DNA of 64,000 bases from Apophysomyces variabilis. Its lineage: Eukaryota > Mucoromycota > Mucoromycetes > Mucorales > Mucoraceae. Each line of letters starts with the position of its first letter. The stretch's first letter is position 1. This document shows positions 11,110-61,152 of this stretch, in pieces. Made by a program: the position numbers and the translations under genes. The DNA is taken from the NCBI GenBank assembly GCA_002749535.1, contig MZZL01000380.1:682001-746000 (forward strand). The letters are read 5' to 3'. The notes under the pieces were generated by a model. That model saw only the letters and a list, made by a program, of their open reading frames with translations. It made no database searches and was not told the origin of the DNA.

Positions 11110-11113
11110 GAAT

Positions 11114-11185
11114 GCCTTCTGCCAGAATCGAACTGGCGACCTTCTGCTTACTAGGCAGACGCTCTGCCAACTGAGCCAAGAAGGC
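11114..11185 (-). tRNA. tRNA-Thr (anticodon AGT)
   Basis: The reverse complement folds as a cloverleaf: acceptor stem GCCTTCT/AGAAGGC, D-arm GCTC...GAGC with AGTTGGCA loop, anticodon stem TCTGC/GCAGA with loop CTAGTAA (anticodon AGT, read as IGU for ACU), and T-arm GCCAG-TTCGATT-CTGGC. 72 nt without CCA, no intron. A run of six T on the minus strand (plus-strand A at 11104-11109) follows at once as the RNA polymerase III terminator. Confidence 0.95.
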
Positions 11186-22367: not shown

Positions 22368-25418
<3,051 letters not shown>

Positions 25419-25735: not shown

Positions 25736-28700
25736 CTACGATTTGATAATGATGGGAAGAGAGGTACGACTCTCCCAACTTTCTGGCAGGCGGGGATCGG
25801 CTAACAATCGTAGGGCTTTCCATCGCAAATAATACACTCCGTCATCTAAGGTGGTACTTCCCATTGTTTCCGTACCAGGAACGAGAATAGTGCCGTTCCA
25901 AATATTGGAAGAAGTGAAATTAATTTCATCCATTGTGTTCCGAGGGATATAATCCTGTACAGTGGCCAGTCCAATCTGCCGTCCTTTCTGATCAAGCACC
26001 TCGGTGATCATACGGGCTGTCCCTGTAAGTAGTCGATAAAGAATAACAACGAAATCCATAGAAGGATTGGATCGGACAATGGTGTAGGACGTGGCATTGT
26101 TGCTACCCGGTTCATGAATCTTTAGAATCTCTGAAGGTGAAGTGAGACCGGGAAAGTTGGCATCAAAGATCGGTAGCTGACGGACATCGCCTTGCATACC
26201 CATATAGGGCACTGTCAATGTTCTGCCACCCGGGTGTTGTGCTTCAAATTCGATAAACCCACCAAAGATAGGATACGGTTCCAGTTGACCCGCTCCTTCG
26301 ACGCGAAGGACGCGAACTGTCAGTGTCACGTTTTCGCCAGGTTCAATCGTAACCTTGGTTTTCGAAAGATAGAGTTCTGCTTTCACTGGGGAAGTCGTGT
26401 ATGCTGCTGGTTGAAGTGGAGCGTAGCCTTGTACCTTTGTATTATGGGGTGCCACGGCGAGTCCTGCTCGGTTATGAATGATGTAGCTCACCCTCTCTTT
26501 TCCCGTGTTAGAAACGGACAAGATATGATCTGTCCTGTGGACGGTGTCATTGAAACTGATTTTAGCTGGAGAAATATGCACTTTCCCTGTAATAGCGTCA
26601 TATACTTTTTTTGTTTGGCAGACAATAGTCAGTATCATTAGGCGTTTATAATCCTTTCTCTTCCTCTCCCTTCCTTTTACCTTGTACGAGACCTGCTCCC
26701 TGTCGTACTGGGTTATCGGTTGCATTGTTTGTTAAGATTGGGTGCGCATAGTTTTGCAGTTGCTCAGCCAGGTAAACTGGGTTCGTGCGGGGATGTGCCT
26801 GAAGATAGAGGGCATGCACTCCTGATATAAAAGGTGCAGCCATTGAGGTACCAGACATTGTGCCATAGCCACCATGAGCCATAGGAATAGTAGAAAACAC
26901 GTAGCCACCAACACCAGCAATATCCGGCTTTAGATCGATTTCATAGGTAGGGCCTGTGCTCGAGAACGCTGATACCTGACGAGCGGTATGCACTGGCGTG
27001 GCAGTAAGCGCCACATTGAACGTGATGTCGATAGCGCCATCGTTTTTATGTATGTGTTGCAGAAGTCGAATACCAGCCTCATGGGAACAGACAGCCACTG
27101 GGATTGGTGAATCTGGCGTGGCTGCCGGAAAAGTGCTTTCACCTGTACGGTCATAGATCAGGACGCCAATGGCTCCTGTACTCGCTATTGTTTTTGCTTT
27201 TGTATCAAACTCGCATTGACCACGTTCAACCAGAACAATCTTTCCTCTGAGTGGGCTCATCGGCTTTGTTCCAGGGCATGCATCATTTAGCGCACCATTG
27301 CTAAAGGCAACCAAAGTACCGTTCGGAAATGTGGTTGTGGTACTCGATAACGCATAGGCTAAAGTAGAAAACGAAAGAGTTTAGCAACTTTTCATTCTCA
27401 GAAAGAGATCTTAACACCCTACGATATTCAATCTCGTCGTTGCTAACGGATAATGTTCTCTCCAAAACATAATCGTTGTCCACAGATCCAGCCGAGACGG
27501 TTTGGGGCCCAGTGCTTGGCGTTGAAATAGCATATACGCCCACACCCCCGTCGTTTCCCGCTGAAACGACAACTGGAACATACATTGCCGGTGAGGTAAA
27601 GAGTAGAGTATATTTCGTTATCTTTTTTTACCAGAAACACCGTGATTAGCAATCCTATTAGCGACGATGGCAGATGGTTCTTCAGGCCAACTGTTGATAC
27701 TTCCCAAACTTAGATTGATAACATGACATCCTTTCATAAAAACAAGAGATTAGATATTTAAAGATTGTTGTGTTTTTTTTTCTGGCTTCTTTCTACCTGT
27801 TTCATATGCCTGAACCAAAGCCTCAATCACCAGGTCGGTTGTGCTTGATCCACTACAACCAAAAATGCGCCACATTCCCAAGGTTGCATTGGGGGCAACC
27901 CCCGTGAAGTTCTAATCGATGAGACGAACAATCTATTTACTAATACTCATTCCGATTGCTTACATATCTAGTGTCATACGCACCGATAATACCGGTTACA
28001 TGAGTACCATGCCCTTTCGAAAAAAGCAGGTTAGAAAGCAAAAGAAAATCAATTATCGGTTTCTGTTTTAAAATACCACTCTGAGGATACTCTTTGCCAC
28101 AGTTGTCCAGTGGTGTCTTCTCTGGTTCGATAGTTGTTGGATCGGTGAAATTGAACCGGCTCCCGACAAGATCACGGCCATACCGTATTTTATAACCGGG
28201 TCCGAAACCACCGCCAAGAGCAGGGTGATTGTAATCCACACCTAATATGCGATGATTGAATGGTATCATTAACAATTAGCTTCCAGCCTAAGACTTCCTT
28301 TTATTTACCTGTATCGATAATACCAACAATGACATCTTTTCCTGTCAATCTCAATTCCTCATGGGCACGGTCCACTTGTGTCATGGCACCCGAAAAAGGG
28401 ATCTTGGCTCCGACCGTAATTGGTCGTATGATCGGAAATCCCGTGTCATGAGGAACAGCTACTGGTCTTTCTACTTCCGTTACGGGAAACACTCTTTTGA
28501 CTCGCGATTTGTTGAGGATTCGATGCAGAACATGTATCTGGGACTTTGCAAAGATTTTTTCGCCATCTGCTAATGATAATAATGATTGCGATGGGTGAAG
28601 TGTAAGGGATATTCCTCGAAAAATGGCTGAAGAAGAACTGTAATCATGAGCGATGCTAAGACGCATTCGAGATGTCGCCACAGGATCCTCATGAAGCAGT

Positions 28701-28903
28701 TCTTTTACGAACTGGGCAGAAGATCCTGAGTATCTGTCGGAAAATTCGATGATATAACGTCCTGGAATGACTTTGCCGAGCGGCGCAGGTTTAAACTTAT
28801 CATGATATATAGTCTCCAACAGATGCTTATCGAATGTCCATACGATAGAGAAGCAGAAGGAAAATACTATAATCAAACAGGAAATACTCTTTACAAAGTA
28901 CAT
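25736..28903 (-). CDS. secreted subtilisin-like serine protease with PA domain (copy A)
   Basis: Peptidase family S8. Eight exons on the minus strand: 28903-28309, 28241-28077, 28013-27964, 27911-27797, 27730-27632, 27572-27423, 27358-26681, 26604-25736; 906 aa. Signal peptide at 1-23 (CLIIVFSFCFSIVW), then an inhibitor-like propeptide (PGRYIIEFSDR). The catalytic triad is complete: Asp197 in GIIDTGVDYNHP, His255 in GHGTHVTG, Ser563 in SGTSMAAP; oxyanion Asn in SAGNDG. A PA domain is inserted at about 400-510 (GKIVLVERGQCEFDTKA). The C-terminal half is Fn3-like with several N-glycosylation sequons. Probably an extracellular nutritional or morphogenetic protease. Head-to-tail with copy B, 230 bp apart, with matching introns. 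Confidence 0.93.
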
Positions 28904-29133
28904 AAAGCAGCGAAAATAAAAAGAGGCAAACGACCGGGAATTTATTCTCCTTTCTTTCTTTTTTGTTTTCCTTTATTGTTGGGCCTTATTATGTTTACTA
29001 TTATCAATTCGACCAAAACGGTATTTCCCGTCAATTTTTCCTGTTATTCCAATCAATAGCAAGTTGATATCAATTTAACAAAGAAATTATTTGTGCAATA
29101 CCTAGATGCAATACAACATCATGAAAGAAAAAC

Positions 29134-32100
29134 TTATGAACTCTCTGAATTCTGTACAAGGATAGGACCTGATGTCCATTCCACCCAATCTCGATCCGAA
29201 GTAGTATCCCCGAACAATTTAAGCGCCGTAAGACGCAAGTAATATATGCCATCCGCTACTGTCCGCGGTTGAGATGAATCGCCATCAGATTGAACAGTGC
29301 CATCCCAGGAAACTTGCTGAACGTAATTGCCATCACTCTTTCTGTTACGATCCCAATTCATAAAGGGACTGTCTGCTAACTGGCCGACAGATCGGAAATT
29401 CTGATCCAGTACCATGATATGGACCAAGGAGGATGCAGATAAAAGCCGATAAACAATACCAGGTGTGGTCTTTTTGTCGACACGGAATTGGAACGTATCT
29501 TTGGCGCCATATTTAATGGTGGAGTTGTCCGAAGGAGCCAAATAAGGGAAGCCCTTGTCAAACACGGGCACTTCCTGCATATTCCCCATGACACCAAAAT
29601 AAGGTACACTTCCCAATCGGGCACCCGTGTCCGCAGCCTGAAGCGTCACATACCCTCCATACATGGAAAAACTAGGATCGTTTTTTTGTGTTTGGATAGT
29701 AACAGTGATTCGAACTGTGCCACCCGAGGGAACGGTAAAATTACCTCCAGAGGAGAAAGTCAGCTCTACATCTATATTGCCTCTTCGCGAAGGTTCGGAT
29801 GGCGCCCAGCTTCCTTCACCAAAAGGCTCTATGGACTTGGAGGGTTGATTCTTCAGTAAAACCTTCATTTCCTTTGTATCTGTGTTGGTGATGGCCAAGA
29901 CATGTGATCGTATCAAATGTGCCGTGTCGTTGAAGCTTAGTTGACCCGGCGATATATGGATATGACTTTCAAAGGCTTCGATAGCTAGTAAAAGAAAACG
30001 AGTAAATGTAATTTAGTATGGGGTGTTTCTGTTTTAATGCAAGAAGTTCTTTTACGTTGAACTAATCCAGCTCCTTGTTTCAACGGATGATCCGGCATAT
30101 CTTGATAAGTGGCAAGTCGTGCCGTGTTTTGGAGCATCTCCATGACATAGGTTGGCTCTACTTGTCGCCCTTGTTCTTTATACCACTGAAGAATCAGCGC
30201 AACGACACCTGTTACATGTGGCGCGGCCATCGACGTGCCTGAACGGATACCCCAACCTCCTTCGACTGCGAGGGGCAAGGTGGAGCGTACCATATGGCCA
30301 ATTCCGGCCAAATTCGGTTTAAGTTCGAGCTCGTTGTTCGGTCCGACACTGGAGAACTCGGATACTTGACCAGCGGTTGGAAGGGAACGCTCATTGGGCT
30401 TGTCCGGAAAAGAAAGCTGAATAGGAACCCCTTTTTGATACAGATCCACCAGCTTTTTGGCAAAATCATAGTCAATGTCCGCGCAGGGTATAGTGCCATT
30501 TTGAGTTTCGGGAACAAACAATGCGGGATCCTCAGGGTCATACACTAGGACGCCAATAGCACCTGCTTTGCCAGCATTGATTGCCTTTTGGTTAAACGTA
30601 CAAATACCACGCTGCACAAGAAGGATCTTGCCCCCTACTTTTGATGACGGTAATGCGTCCAAATCGCAAGCCAGGGTAACGCCCTCATCTGTTTGAAGCA
30701 CAACTAATGTACCATTTGGAAAGGTGGAGGTGGTTGGAGAGAGACTATATGCTATCAACAAAGAACAAGTAATAAGCTTCCAGAGATAAAATATAGTTTT
30801 TTTATCCGTCTACCATAAGCTTGTCCAGGCAAAGCATCCACCATGATGGCCTTTGCAGAATAGAAGGAATTATCGACTGAAGCTACTGAAAACACATGCT
30901 TGCCAGAACCCGGTGTATTTTGGGAGAATACGCCCGCTGTTCCTTGATTTCCTGCCACGCTCACAACTAACGTGTCGTGTTAATGAAGGCATTCTTGCTA
31001 CGTTTATTTTCATACCAATAACCCCTTTGTTAACTAAACGTTCAGCATAAACTGCCATGGCATCCTCTGGCCACGCATTCTGTACTCCCAAGCTAAGGTT
31101 GATGACATTACAACCTTTGCGGAATAAAAAAAAGATGCTGTCCTTTAGCGGTTTCACTTGTGCTTTGCATCTTTGAAGAAAAGAAACAAGTAGCTTACCA
31201 GCTTGATAGGCCATCTCCAAGGCTTTAATGACCGTGTCTTCACTTGCACCTCCGTCGCATCCGAATATTCGCCACATGCCTAAGGTTGCATCTGGTGCAA
31301 TACCGGTAAAATTCTATGTTTGCATATTATGGTTCGTTAAGACAAGCATAGAGGTTTCAGCTCTTGGTTTACCTTGTCCGGAGCAAACCCTCCAATGATG
31401 CCACTGACATGTGTACCGTGACCTACAATTTTTGGATGTTGAGATATGTTGAAACTGAGGCCCTATAACAGTAAAACCAGTAATAGTTTACCAACATTGT
31501 CACCAGTACATGGGTCAAAAGGATCGGTTGCTGAGCGATGCGTTCCAGCATGCGTGTCGTCGTCAGAAGGATCCACCAAGTTGGCGCCAAGTCGAAATTT
31601 GAAGCCATTACCAAATCCGCCTCCTAAGGCAGGATGCATGTAATCAACACCTAACATGGTAACCGTTGAGCCCAAAGGCCGAGAATGACGGGCGACTAGC
31701 ATTTACCGTGCTAGATCACCAACTTCTTGTTTTTTACCTGAATCAAGGATTCCGATGACCATGCCTTTGCCGGTTAACTTTTTATTGTCATGTACACGCG
31801 CTATTTCGGATAACCAATCTTCATAAGGCAAGGTTTTATCTTTTTCTACCGTCCATTGTGGTCTAGGGATTTCATATACTGGATATATTTTCTTTACGGA
31901 TGGGAGACCGATCATCTGGGTCAGGACGGGATGTTGTTGCGGTTCGGGATGGCGATGATGGTCTCGAAGGAAGAGGGACATGCCATGAAATAAATCGGAT
32001 GAAAAGGTGTGTCGCACGTCGAAAAGCTCTTCAAGCGGTGAGAGAACGGATAGAAGGTGGGTATGATCGTTAGGCGTGGCGTATTCAACGATGTATGCAC

Positions 32101-52722: not shown

Positions 52723-53392
52723 GAGCTGATTGACAATAGTGGATAAAGGAAAAAGTCACCTATCAGAATTTTTACCGACCGACGATTAATACAGTACATA
52801 CGCAAAGAATCCAGACATTATTATGCTGCGCTGTTTCTTCACAACAATACGATGGGACTTATAAACAACCTAATACAATTTTCTGCTGCTAATTTCTCTT
52901 GCTGTGAAGGACATGTTCCATGAAAGCCGCAGTGTGAGCATTCTTGGCTTTTTCTTTGTTGGTTGCCACAACGCAGCCGCATTAAGTGACCCTTTCAGCT
53001 CCCGGCCCGGGAGGATTACGAGCCATAGCAATTTCCGGTGAAGCACACCCCATTTTCTCAATTTCGACAGCATAAGTAATGCAATTAAAATAAACGCTTG
53101 ATACACAAATATGTTACGTGAATGCGATAGTAAAACCAAAGTAACATGGTTAAAGCAAAAGATGGGCCTACAACGGGTCGACGTTTTCAGCATGTTGATC
53201 GGACCGAACTTACTGTTATAGTTCATAAGAATGCTGAAGTCCGGGCTGGATTGCCTTTGCCGAAAGTAGCGCCCCAAAAAAAGCTCGTCCTCGACTTAGC
53301 TGATCTCGTGCAATTCCAAGCGATTAGGTGACATCAAATCGTTTCATTATGGTACGTGTCTTGCCCAGTGCTTTCGCTCAAGTGTTTAATCT
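52723..53392. other. divergent intergenic region upstream of NELF-C/D
   Basis: 670 bp. It contains a + ORF at 53146-53331 (MVKAKDGPTTGRRF...) and an overlapping minus ORF, neither of which can be joined in frame to the NELF-C/D gene or to a known family. Possibly an unrecognised small exon. Confidence 0.4.
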
Positions 53393-55780
53393 ATGCATCA
53401 GTCTGAGAATTTGAGACTTATGCTCCTTGACGAGTATAAAAAGGAGCTTTCTAAGAAAGGTACCTTGAATCAAATAAAGTGAGCGCGATTGATCAATTCC
53501 GATCCCATTTATAGACGCTATAATGGAACAAGATATATACAGTGGTGTTCTATCAGAATACTTAAAAGAGGGTGGCGATCCTACCGAGGCCGTCAACATT
53601 TTATCGGAATCCTACATAGGCGTCCCTTCCATGTGCAATTTAACAGCAGAATCTGCTGATTTTGTTGGTCTTAACAGCCAAGCTATACTTCTGAACGCGG
53701 TCAGACAGATGTTGACACAGAAGTTTGATCCAAAAAGATGTGATGCTCTGTTTATGAAAAATGATGTAGGCAGCTTGCTGTATTTCATAGCTTTAAACGA
53801 CGATTTGGTTAGGATCAGACGCCACCTGAATGGTTAGATGCCATTGTGCAGGACACGCACTGGAGACAGACGATATATGAGCTAATGGAGATGCATCCTC
53901 GTTCTGTCTTTTTAAACTTTGTTGTCTTGGTAAGACTATCCGATGAGAGACAGAATGTGACACTTGTCATAGAGAATAGCAGAGAATGGATATGCTTCCG
54001 AAGTATCAGCTCTAAAGACTGCATCAATCTATGTGAAAATATACAATTATATATTGGGAAATTCAATCGCTGAAAAAGTATCTGCTGACGACTTGGAACT
54101 GAACGATAGTTTACCAGAGTTTTTGGTAAAGTCTCTACAATATATTTCCCGTATTAAGCCATGCTCCCTCTAGAAACTTTGCTGTGAACGTGAAGAAACA
54201 TACCTTTATGCGCAGCTACTGATTTGTAAACTTCATGATGAATTCAACGGGTTGCCATTTTTGAAACTGGCACGGCAACTGGAGAACGCTGCTGCTAGAA
54301 GAGGCCAGTAAGTTCATACGAGTACTTCTAAGTCCTTATGACGGACTGACATTTTAATGCATAACAATAATAGCTCCCAGTTTGTCGAACATCTGAGGAC
54401 GTACATGTCAGATGCGCCGCTGCAACTCTCTAAAGCTTTGAATGCTATATTAAGTAAGCAAGCTGTCACACCAGGTGATGTTATGGTGGTATGAATGAAA
54501 GAAACAGCTACGCAGCATGAATAACGGCTATGGTTTCGCAGATCCACAGATTCTATACGTCTTCCAATCCTCCTGCAAGTCGCTACATCTGCAACTATGA
54601 CTTTATCGGTAAGGCTTGACATCATGCCTATGTTACTTTAACTCGCAGTGAAGATATTTTGCTTAAAGTTGTCTACGTGCCGAATTCGAGCCATCAACTC
54701 GATCAGGACATGTTAGAGCGTGTGATCTACATCATAGCATACGCTACAACGTTCAAAGAATCTTCACCGAAAGAGGTATGACTTTACCAATATCATTTAC
54801 GTATGCTGTTCCACTGAATTTCATGCTAAAATAGGATCAAAAAGAGAAAATTGACAAAGTGTGCACGACTTTGAAAGCGCTGCATGGCGCCCTAAAAGAT
54901 CCGAAGGGTGTCAATTTTAGAGGCAGCTTGCCAACGATTGTTCAGTCAAGAAAGTATGTATTCGTAGTTTCTTACAATATGTCTAAGCTTGCTGTAGGAT
55001 TCCTATAGCTTCTCTGGCAATCCTTCATTGGATTGAACACTTATCGTTACGCACACCTTACTATGAAACCTATTATCGAACATCTGTCACACCATTACCA
55101 CATCTATTACTTGATGAAATTGCGAATGAGAATCCGTTACAGCAACCTGTTGTATTCGAAATCGTCAAACGCTGTCTTCTACATGATTACCAAAATTTCG
55201 CACCAGAAATCCTGGTATGTCATTAATAATATCGTTTATTGACTGTCTAATGAGGCTATGACAGATGACGCTGAGAACAAACTGGATTGACAGGCTATTA
55301 AACCTGGTGGCGCTTGATTTTACGATGCCGGTACTGAAATTTATGAAAGAAATTGGCCCAGAATTGGATAGAAGCTTAAGTGTGCATTTTGTGAAAAATG
55401 TAAGCATATTACTAGCCCTAAGTATTTGACTGACCATCATTCATAGCTTCTGGAAATTGCCAAACCACCATGCTCTGCAGCGTTTATTGAATATTTTGCA
55501 GATATCGTAGCATCCATTCCACAGATGTCAACTTCAAATCAATCCGTCCAGGAAGCAGTGGACGTCTTCTTTGGTAAAAGATTTGCTGTAGTTCCGATGG
55601 CTGTTATTTCTCATTGATTCGAAAACAGAGGAAGCCATTAGCAGCTCAGATGGTCTAAGTGCTGAAGTCAAAGCAAAGGTTGCAAGAGCAAGGCAAAGAG
55701 GCGTAAAACGGGTCCGCGGAGAACCAAGCGTTGATGAAGACGAGGACGACCCTGAGATATCAGGTGACATTTCACGCTAG
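53393..55780 (+). CDS. NELFCD: negative elongation factor C/D (NELF-C/D, TH1) homologue
   Basis: Thirteen exons: 53393-53459, 53515-53765, 53819-53929, 53985-54125, 54174-54307, 54374-54488, 54542-54608, 54654-54775, 54835-54953, 54998-55214, 55265-55399, 55447-55573, 55629-55780; 585 aa (human 581-590). Collinear family matches: KKDAIMEQDIYSGVLSEYL then GGDPTEAVNILSESY, KFDPKRCDALF, PEWLDAIVQDTHWRQTIYEL, HPRSVFLNFVV, EETYLYAQLLI, QAVTPGDVMV, ERVIYIIAYATTF, IPIASLAILHWIEH, LLLDEIA, RCLLHDYQNF, and the long conserved C-terminal helices. NELF pauses RNA polymerase II near promoters in animals. Intron 3 (53930-53984) is the least certain. The tail ends in an acidic stretch (EDEDDPEISGDISR). Confidence 0.88.
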
Positions 55781-59570: not shown

Positions 59571-61152
59571 ATGGAACACAAGTACTACGAAGTCCCACTA
59601 CGACAGCGACGTATACCACACAGTGCAATACTCAAATACTCCAGGAGTCCAGAACATTCAAGCAGACTATCTGAGCAGATTGACAACTCCACTATGAATG
59701 GGAACTATCGAGGAGATATTTCAAATAGATTAAACAACGCGGAGGCCGTCTGAAGATAGACTGCTTCGCCGCTTACCGCAACGCACAACCACAGAAATAT
59801 TGGAGTATACGTCCGGATCCTGGAGAAAGCGCAGTAGATGCATTCAGACAGAGTTGGCCAAAATGGGGTCTTCACTTTTATGCGGCCTGGAGACTAATTC
59901 CCAAGGTGATCCAGAGATTACGATCACAGAAAACGCAGAGTGCAGTACTGGTGACTCCCTATTGGCCGACACAATTTTGGTTTCTAATGATATTGCAAAT
60001 GACCACGGAGCGCCCGGTTGAGATCAAGAATAGGCAAGAAATGGAAATTAACCATTTTGAGACTATCAAGGACAGTAGACGTCAACAAGATCGCGACGAG
60101 AAAACGATTCATTTCCTACTACAAGGCCACAGAAAACGTACAAGGGGTCTATGATCGCAGCTGGAGAGTCTGGGTGAGATGGTGCCAAACTCAACAACCA
60201 AATAAGGACCCGACAGAATACAACATCTCCAACGGTTTTGCAGTTTGTACTAGATCTTTCCAGACAAATTCACAAAGACAAGCCTCCCATTACACACACA
60301 AAACACGACTTCTTTAAGGCCAAAATAACATCAGAAGGTTTAATTTCCCCTCATACAAGCTGGAGACCTGGGACATTGATATATTGATCGATTTCATTCG
60401 ATCCAGGTACAAAACAAACTCACAGCTGTCCATCAAGGCGTTGTAAAAGAAATAATAATATCAATTTTATGTATTGCGACGATGTAGCGTTCTAGGTCGG
60501 ACGTGGGTATTCTTCAGTCCAGAGATGTGCATTTCTTTTACGATGACGAGACCAAAGATCTCCAAAGAGTTACACCATTCATTCGCACACCTAAAGAATG
60601 CCAATTTAAATTCTGCCATCTAGGCGTACTTGCCGGCAGGGGCATGTACCCGGTTTACACCTCGAAAGAGTTTCTCAACAGATCGCAACAACGTCGTTAC
60701 AACCTACCAAGGGCACATTGAGTATTTTTAGCCTACATCAACGATAAGAACAAATTTTGAAGTATCGGCCCGGTCACCGTTGCAAACGAGTGAAATCCAA
60801 TATGAAGGTAGCCGGAATAGACACAACCAAATTCCCACCACATACAACTCGAGCAGGAAGCAGCACTAAGGCCATTCAGCTAGGTTTGTCCCAGCAGCAA
60901 GTGAAAGAGCATACCCATTGGAGTTTGGCTGGTGATACTCTGGAGCGTTACTACTACAAACGAAACCACAGCGCTTCCCTGGGTGCGGATATCTACCAAT
61001 CGATTCTTTTCAATGCGGAGAAAGGTACCACATTTGGAGTTGGGGCGGAGGTAACCAGACGTAGCGTAGGAACGCACATTAAGGCGAAGGTTGCCGAAGA
61101 GAAGACGAAAGATGTGATACACACCCAGCCCTTGTTCCGTCATTTCTTCTGA
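59571..61152 (+). mobile_element. DIRS-like (tyrosine-recombinase) retrotransposon remnant
   Basis: Fragments in order but in shifting frames. RNase H-like part at about 59750-60000: CFAAYRNAQPQKYWS, DAFRQSWPKWGLHFYAAWRL, VLVTPYWPTQFWF, as in DIRS/Ngaro elements. Then a SAM-like recombinase N-terminus near 60180-60310 (NKDPTEYN, VLQFVLDLSRQIHKDKPPIT). The catalytic end at 60757-61152 (MKVAGIDTTKFPPHTTRAGSS, KEHTHWSLAGDTLERYYYKR) keeps the HxxR, H/W and Tyr residues of tyrosine recombinases. Stops and frameshifts separate the parts, and no split direct or inverted terminal repeats were seen, so the copy is dead. The reverse transcriptase region was not found. Confidence 0.75.

Follow-up and report, generated by a model that had tools for sequence, protein, structure and literature searches.

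A NELF-C/D gene in the mould Apophysomyces variabilis and its putative NELF-A and NELF-B partners

Introduction

The 64,000-nucleotide stretch of Apophysomyces variabilis DNA analysed here (contig MZZL01000380.1, positions 682,001 to 746,000; hereafter the window) carries on its + strand a gene for NELF-C/D, a subunit of the negative elongation factor complex through which RNA polymerase II (Pol II) is paused in animals, and the same genome encodes NELF-A and NELF-B. The product is probably a member of a NELF complex with these two partners, and whether such a complex would pause Pol II is, judged from the sequences, an evenly balanced question. The window is part of contig C64 of an assembly of 38.7 Mb in 126 contigs.

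Results

Identity and relatives of NELF-C/D

The sequence-only reading had taken the gene for a homologue of animal NELF-C/D, and the searches bear this out. Pfam TH1 (PF04858) matches residues 11-529 of the protein at 4.8e-89 (profile positions 36-558 of 579), and a PDB sequence search aligned human NELF-C/D (PDB 5l3x, 6gml, 7ycx) with residues 17-521 at 2.1e-70, with identity at 141 of 498 aligned pairs (28%) and no alignment reported beyond residue 521. Eight of the nine PDB matches are NELF-C/D, the ninth being a designed protein at 7.5e-5. When the TH1 profile was applied to the 38.7 Mb genome, four exon matches were obtained (three over the cut-off), all at the window locus. For NELF-C/D, the searches against Pfam, the PDB and the large protein database used a 555-residue version of the protein as query.

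The large protein database (5.8 billion proteins), searched with NELF-C/D and NELF-A, yielded at least 22 NELF-C/D homologues among 7994 scored candidates; since these searches score a limited candidate list, the match lists are lower bounds. The best match listed is an Apophysomyces ossiformis protein (P0001) with 96% identity, annotated "Negative elongation factor C/D". Two further Apophysomyces proteins (P0002 and P0003) are about 80% identical in the alignment, and each of these three annotated models lacks or adds stretches relative to the window protein. Among the ten of the 22 homologues that were aligned, identity ranges from 44 to 96%. Relatives in other fungi include proteins of Radiomyces, Halteromyces, Absidia and Phycomyces, and many are named NELF-C/D or TH1. 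The window gene differs little from its A. ossiformis counterpart, and no distinctive feature was seen in it.

The mould genus Apophysomyces belongs to the order Mucorales, and the placing of the host in an early-diverging fungal order by the sequence-only reading stands. The other named genera among the matches we take to be mostly Mucorales as well. Given that Tieghemiomyces parasiticus (Kickxellomycota) also has a match, NELF-C/D extends beyond this order.

Structure of the NELF-C/D gene

The gene model consists of the following features, all on the + strand:

53393..55780: gene for NELF-C/D (TH1), coding region of 591 amino acids between ATG and stop codon inclusive
53393..53459: exon 1, begins with ATG; an in-frame TAA lies upstream at 53387-53389
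53515..53765: exon 2
53813..53929: exon 3
53973..54125: exon 4
54174..54307: exon 5
54374..54488: exon 6
54542..54608: exon 7
54654..54775: exon 8, behind an AAG acceptor; its first residues occur in P0002 and not in P0001
54835..54953: exon 9
54998..55214: exon 10
55265..55399: exon 11
55447..55573: exon 12
55629..55780: exon 13, charged C-terminal tail, common to P0001-P0003, and stop

As a predicted model, the gene is confirmed to be complete and intron-rich, with the coordinates that the sequence-only reading had given. Its 13 exons are separated by 12 GT-AG introns of 43-66 bases, each of which disrupts the frame when retained, and the spliced product of 591 residues has its sole stop at the end. 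The length proposed earlier, 585 residues, comes close and falls short of this model, probably through another choice at the last intron. An end at 55617, which would give 555 residues, was rejected, and the longer model was kept because the nearly identical P0001 and the similar P0002 and P0003 all run into exon 13. Likewise rejected was an 11-base intron or sequencing error near 53808, invoked for a frame shift in exon 2: with an ordinary intron of 47 bases (53766-53812) the frame is restored, in agreement with the aligned homologues. Eleven of the 12 acceptors are TAG or CAG and one, that of intron 54609-54653, is AAG; the residues around this junction are missing from P0001 and present in P0002.

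Directly upstream of the gene, a short ATG-initiated open frame lies at 53146-53331 on the + strand.

NELF-A in the same genome

A NELF-A gene was located outside the window:

G000:C29:102461-100998 (L008), - strand: NELF-A gene, four exons, 393 residues

At exon level, the Pfam NELF-A_N profile (PF23553) scored 5.1e-4 and 24.6 bits in the genome search, slightly under the cut-off of 27; against the joined four-exon protein it reached 3e-12 and 47.2 bits, over the same cut-off. Human NELF-A matches the fungal protein at 9.1e-10, and a protein of A. ossiformis that carries the annotation Negative elongation factor A is 97% identical to it over the full length. The close match of both NELF-C/D and NELF-A to A. 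ossiformis argues that the contigs belong to one organism. A profile built from four fungal NELF-A proteins retrieved spider NELF-A at 2.4e-9 from the database of 5.8 billion proteins, and hhalign gave 97.9% for fungal against spider NELF-A. With a profile of six fungal proteins, the PDB yielded three matches up to an E-value of 1, all of them NELF-A, the best at 7e-14.

Human NELF-A inserts W24 and W89 into pockets of NELF-C (PMC4940160). Trp22 and Trp87 of the fungal protein align with these residues, and an alignment of six fungal and two spider proteins shows no variation at either position. The alignments cover six of seven fungal proteins, P0025 being omitted as an annotated protein that lacks the stretch of the second tryptophan; in alignments and structural models, P0023 (A. 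ossiformis, 97%) was substituted for the genome's own NELF-A.

The C-terminal part follows another pattern. A block around GF..SR.QM.DF.DA is conserved in most of the six Mucorales proteins and not in spider NELF-A, and lies before a long predicted helix. Relative to human NELF-A (PDB 5l3x_A, 6gml_U), the fungal proteins lack the spider-type C-terminal block and have the Mucorales block and the helix instead.

Structure prediction with four fungal NELF-A proteins gave a poor model, with a mean predicted local distance difference test score (pLDDT) of 46. With eight proteins, two of them from spiders, the mean rose to 60, and the model was confident only over approximately residues 1-100 and in a helix at 311-371. 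This model matches NELF-A chains; helical models may obtain high Z-scores against unrelated chains too, and the gap from 13.2 to 8.3 would favour a genuine structural match, as a point that is not independent of the sequence evidence.

NELF-B and DSIF

NELF-B lies on contig C78, where the genome profile search gave two COBRA1 exon matches over the cut-off. Its seven-exon model of 539 residues matches COBRA1 (PF06209) at 1.2e-43, and human NELF-B aligns with residues 15-381 at 2.2e-47. The 3' end of the gene enters an assembly gap. In this 3' part (L009:5079-5355), a 277-base run of N follows a poly-A tract, and a coding piece with a stop lies beyond it. Both subunits of DSIF, Spt5 and Spt4, are also encoded, with matches to PF03439 (5.7e-13) and PF06093 (8.7e-7), each over the cut-off.

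Searches for NELF-E, HEXIM and 7SK

The sequence-only reading had proposed that the remaining subunits be sought in the same genome; NELF-A and NELF-B were found there, as described above, and NELF-E was not. The queries for it were two portions of the human NELF-E sequence, the RNA recognition motif (RRM) and the N-terminal part. The RRM query gave ten genome matches, the best at 8.2e-8, and the N-terminal query gave none. No NELF-E was recognized among the RRM matches: the best five of the ten, which were read by eye, resemble other RRM proteins, presumably of the Nam8/TIA1, Pumilio and SF3B4 types. No genome match was obtained for the HEXIM domain, for which no control genome gave one either, nor for 7SK RNA, for which the control matched only three prokaryotes, below the cut-off.

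A positive control puts the empty NELF-E search in proportion. Full-length spider NELF-A (P0030), accepted at E-values of 10 or below, gave no match in this genome despite the NELF-A gene present in it. Hence, the failure of a single animal sequence to find NELF-E shows no absence.

Other features of the window

On the - strand at 25739-31313, visual reading of several adjoining long frames suggests repeated proteases of the subtilisin type; an Fn3-like domain occurs in one of them, and two have the motif TFPNGTLV in common. They are possibly a tandem gene family. At 22594-23541 and 24069-24566 on the - strand, AIR synthase domains occur close to a frame with a visual resemblance to GAR synthetase, and these frames are possibly a fused purine-synthesis gene. 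By eye, the start of a frame at 60748-61149 (+ strand) resembles a piece of a tyrosine recombinase such as Crypton-type elements have; the frame has no Pfam match. One tRNA gene was identified:

11113-11185, - strand: tRNA-Thr (AGT), found by ARAGORN and Rfam

Discussion

A putative NELF-ABC core

The genome holds NELF-A, NELF-B, NELF-C/D and both DSIF subunits, and its NELF-A retains the residues that anchor the human protein. On this basis, NELF-C/D most likely works with NELF-A and NELF-B as a NELF-ABC core, in which NELF-A would dock into NELF-C through the two conserved tryptophans and NELF-B would bind NELF-C. The assembled core would then sit on Pol II together with DSIF and slow promoter escape. 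The fuller proposition, that Mucorales have a working NELF-ABC with a NELF-A C-terminus unlike that of animals, without NELF-E, and that this complex genuinely slows Pol II close to promoters, is put forward tentatively, at somewhat less than even chances.

Several observations weigh against such a core acting on Pol II. The basic patches of human NELF-C have been tied to nucleic-acid binding and are reported as only partially conserved in Dictyostelium (PMC4940160); in the fungal protein, six of the nine human patch positions are not basic and three are, counting the NELF-C side only, and the position aligned with human K315 is still basic. The fungal NELF-A proteins aligned show nothing that corresponds to the C-terminal block of spider NELF-A. 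The outcomes for NELF-E, HEXIM and 7SK reported above point the same way, within the limits of their controls. Finally, several fungi with NELF-C/D, among them Phycomyces, Parasitella and Cokeromyces, gave no NELF-A among the matches listed in two protein searches; even inside the Mucorales, then, the presence of NELF-A may be patchy. Hesseltinella vesiculosa and Radiomyces spectabilis each have NELF-A as well as NELF-C/D among the matches.

Given that NELF-E and HEXIM were not identified and that only a minority of the basic patch residues of human NELF-C is retained, any pause would be expected to be weaker or more diffuse than in animals. If NELF-E and HEXIM are truly missing, this should agree with the correlation described in PMC11482795.

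The loss of most basic patch residues and the failure to find NELF-E in the genome searches would also fit a different explanation, in which NELF-B and NELF-C/D were retained for a role other than pausing, for example cytoplasmic or in signalling, with NELF-A as their partner there. In mammalian cells, NELFB has been described as acting independently of pausing, and other functions of NELFB and NELFC have been argued for where pausing is undocumented (PMC10591015). However, NELF-A is present with both tryptophans that anchor it in NELF-C, part of human NELF-A associates with Pol II (PMC4940160), and Spt4 and Spt5 are encoded; a purely cytoplasmic role alone would not predict the retention of NELF-A. 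We consider this explanation improbable, at about one chance in a handful.

Less probable still is a complete four-subunit NELF with a divergent NELF-E that was overlooked. The positive control lends it some weight, in that full-length animal NELF-A likewise missed the real fungal gene, yet the best five RRM matches look by eye like members of other RRM families. Decay of the NELF-C/D locus into a pseudogene, as its single AAG acceptor among 12 could suggest, is very hard to believe, with a frame open through 13 exons and with identities of 96% (P0001 of A. ossiformis) and about 80% (P0002 and P0003).

Comparison with the known distribution

NELF-B and NELF-C/D are described as widespread in eukaryotes and secondarily lost in S. 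pombe, S. cerevisiae, C. elegans and land plants (PMC11482795), and Fungi are named among the holders of NELFB and NELFC (PMC10591015). Homologues of NELF-A and NELF-C are reported already in Dictyostelium and Chlorella (PMC4940160), and NELF is reported as missing in Paramecium (PMC12716044). In PMC9476466, the part available has NELF only as a listed abbreviation, in a legend on another topic. Public databases, furthermore, already label some fungal proteins NELF-A, NELF-C/D or TH1. Fungal NELF-C/D itself is therefore not new: the window gene adds one more unremarkable member to a family recorded in fungi, and the surprise that the sequence-only reading had seen in it does not hold.

The case of NELF-A is different. 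The part of PMC10591015 available does not report NELFA for fungi. In the corresponding part of PMC11482795, some unicellular eukaryotes have what seem to be homologues of NELF-A, but its HDAg-like domain is found in animals and Capsaspora only. No description of fungal NELF-A was found in the literature searched, with most subscription papers and supplementary tables outside its reach. The fungal NELF-A contradicts the statement in PMC10591015 as available to us; it contradicts PMC11482795 too if its N-terminal domain, identified here with Pfam NELF-A_N instead, is the HDAg-like domain of that study. In comparison with the NELF-B and NELF-C/D core that PMC11482795 describes for unicellular eukaryotes, this mould agrees in having both subunits and in that NELF-E was not found, and differs in having a NELF-A with the N-terminal domain. 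The contrast between a full-length animal sequence, which misses the gene, and a domain profile, which finds it, hints at why fungal NELF-A was overlooked.

Significance

The NELF-A partner outweighs the window gene in importance, being absent from fungi in the account of PMC10591015, with its HDAg-like domain confined to animals and Capsaspora in that of PMC11482795. If the finding is confirmed, surveys that place the origin of this NELF-A domain on the animal stem will need revision, and the mould will be a place to study NELF where NELF-E, HEXIM and 7SK are not evident. Should the NELF-ABC core be real, NELF-A with its N-terminal domain would predate the split of animals and fungi, as NELF-B and NELF-C/D do, and its patchy distribution would reflect loss rather than late gain.
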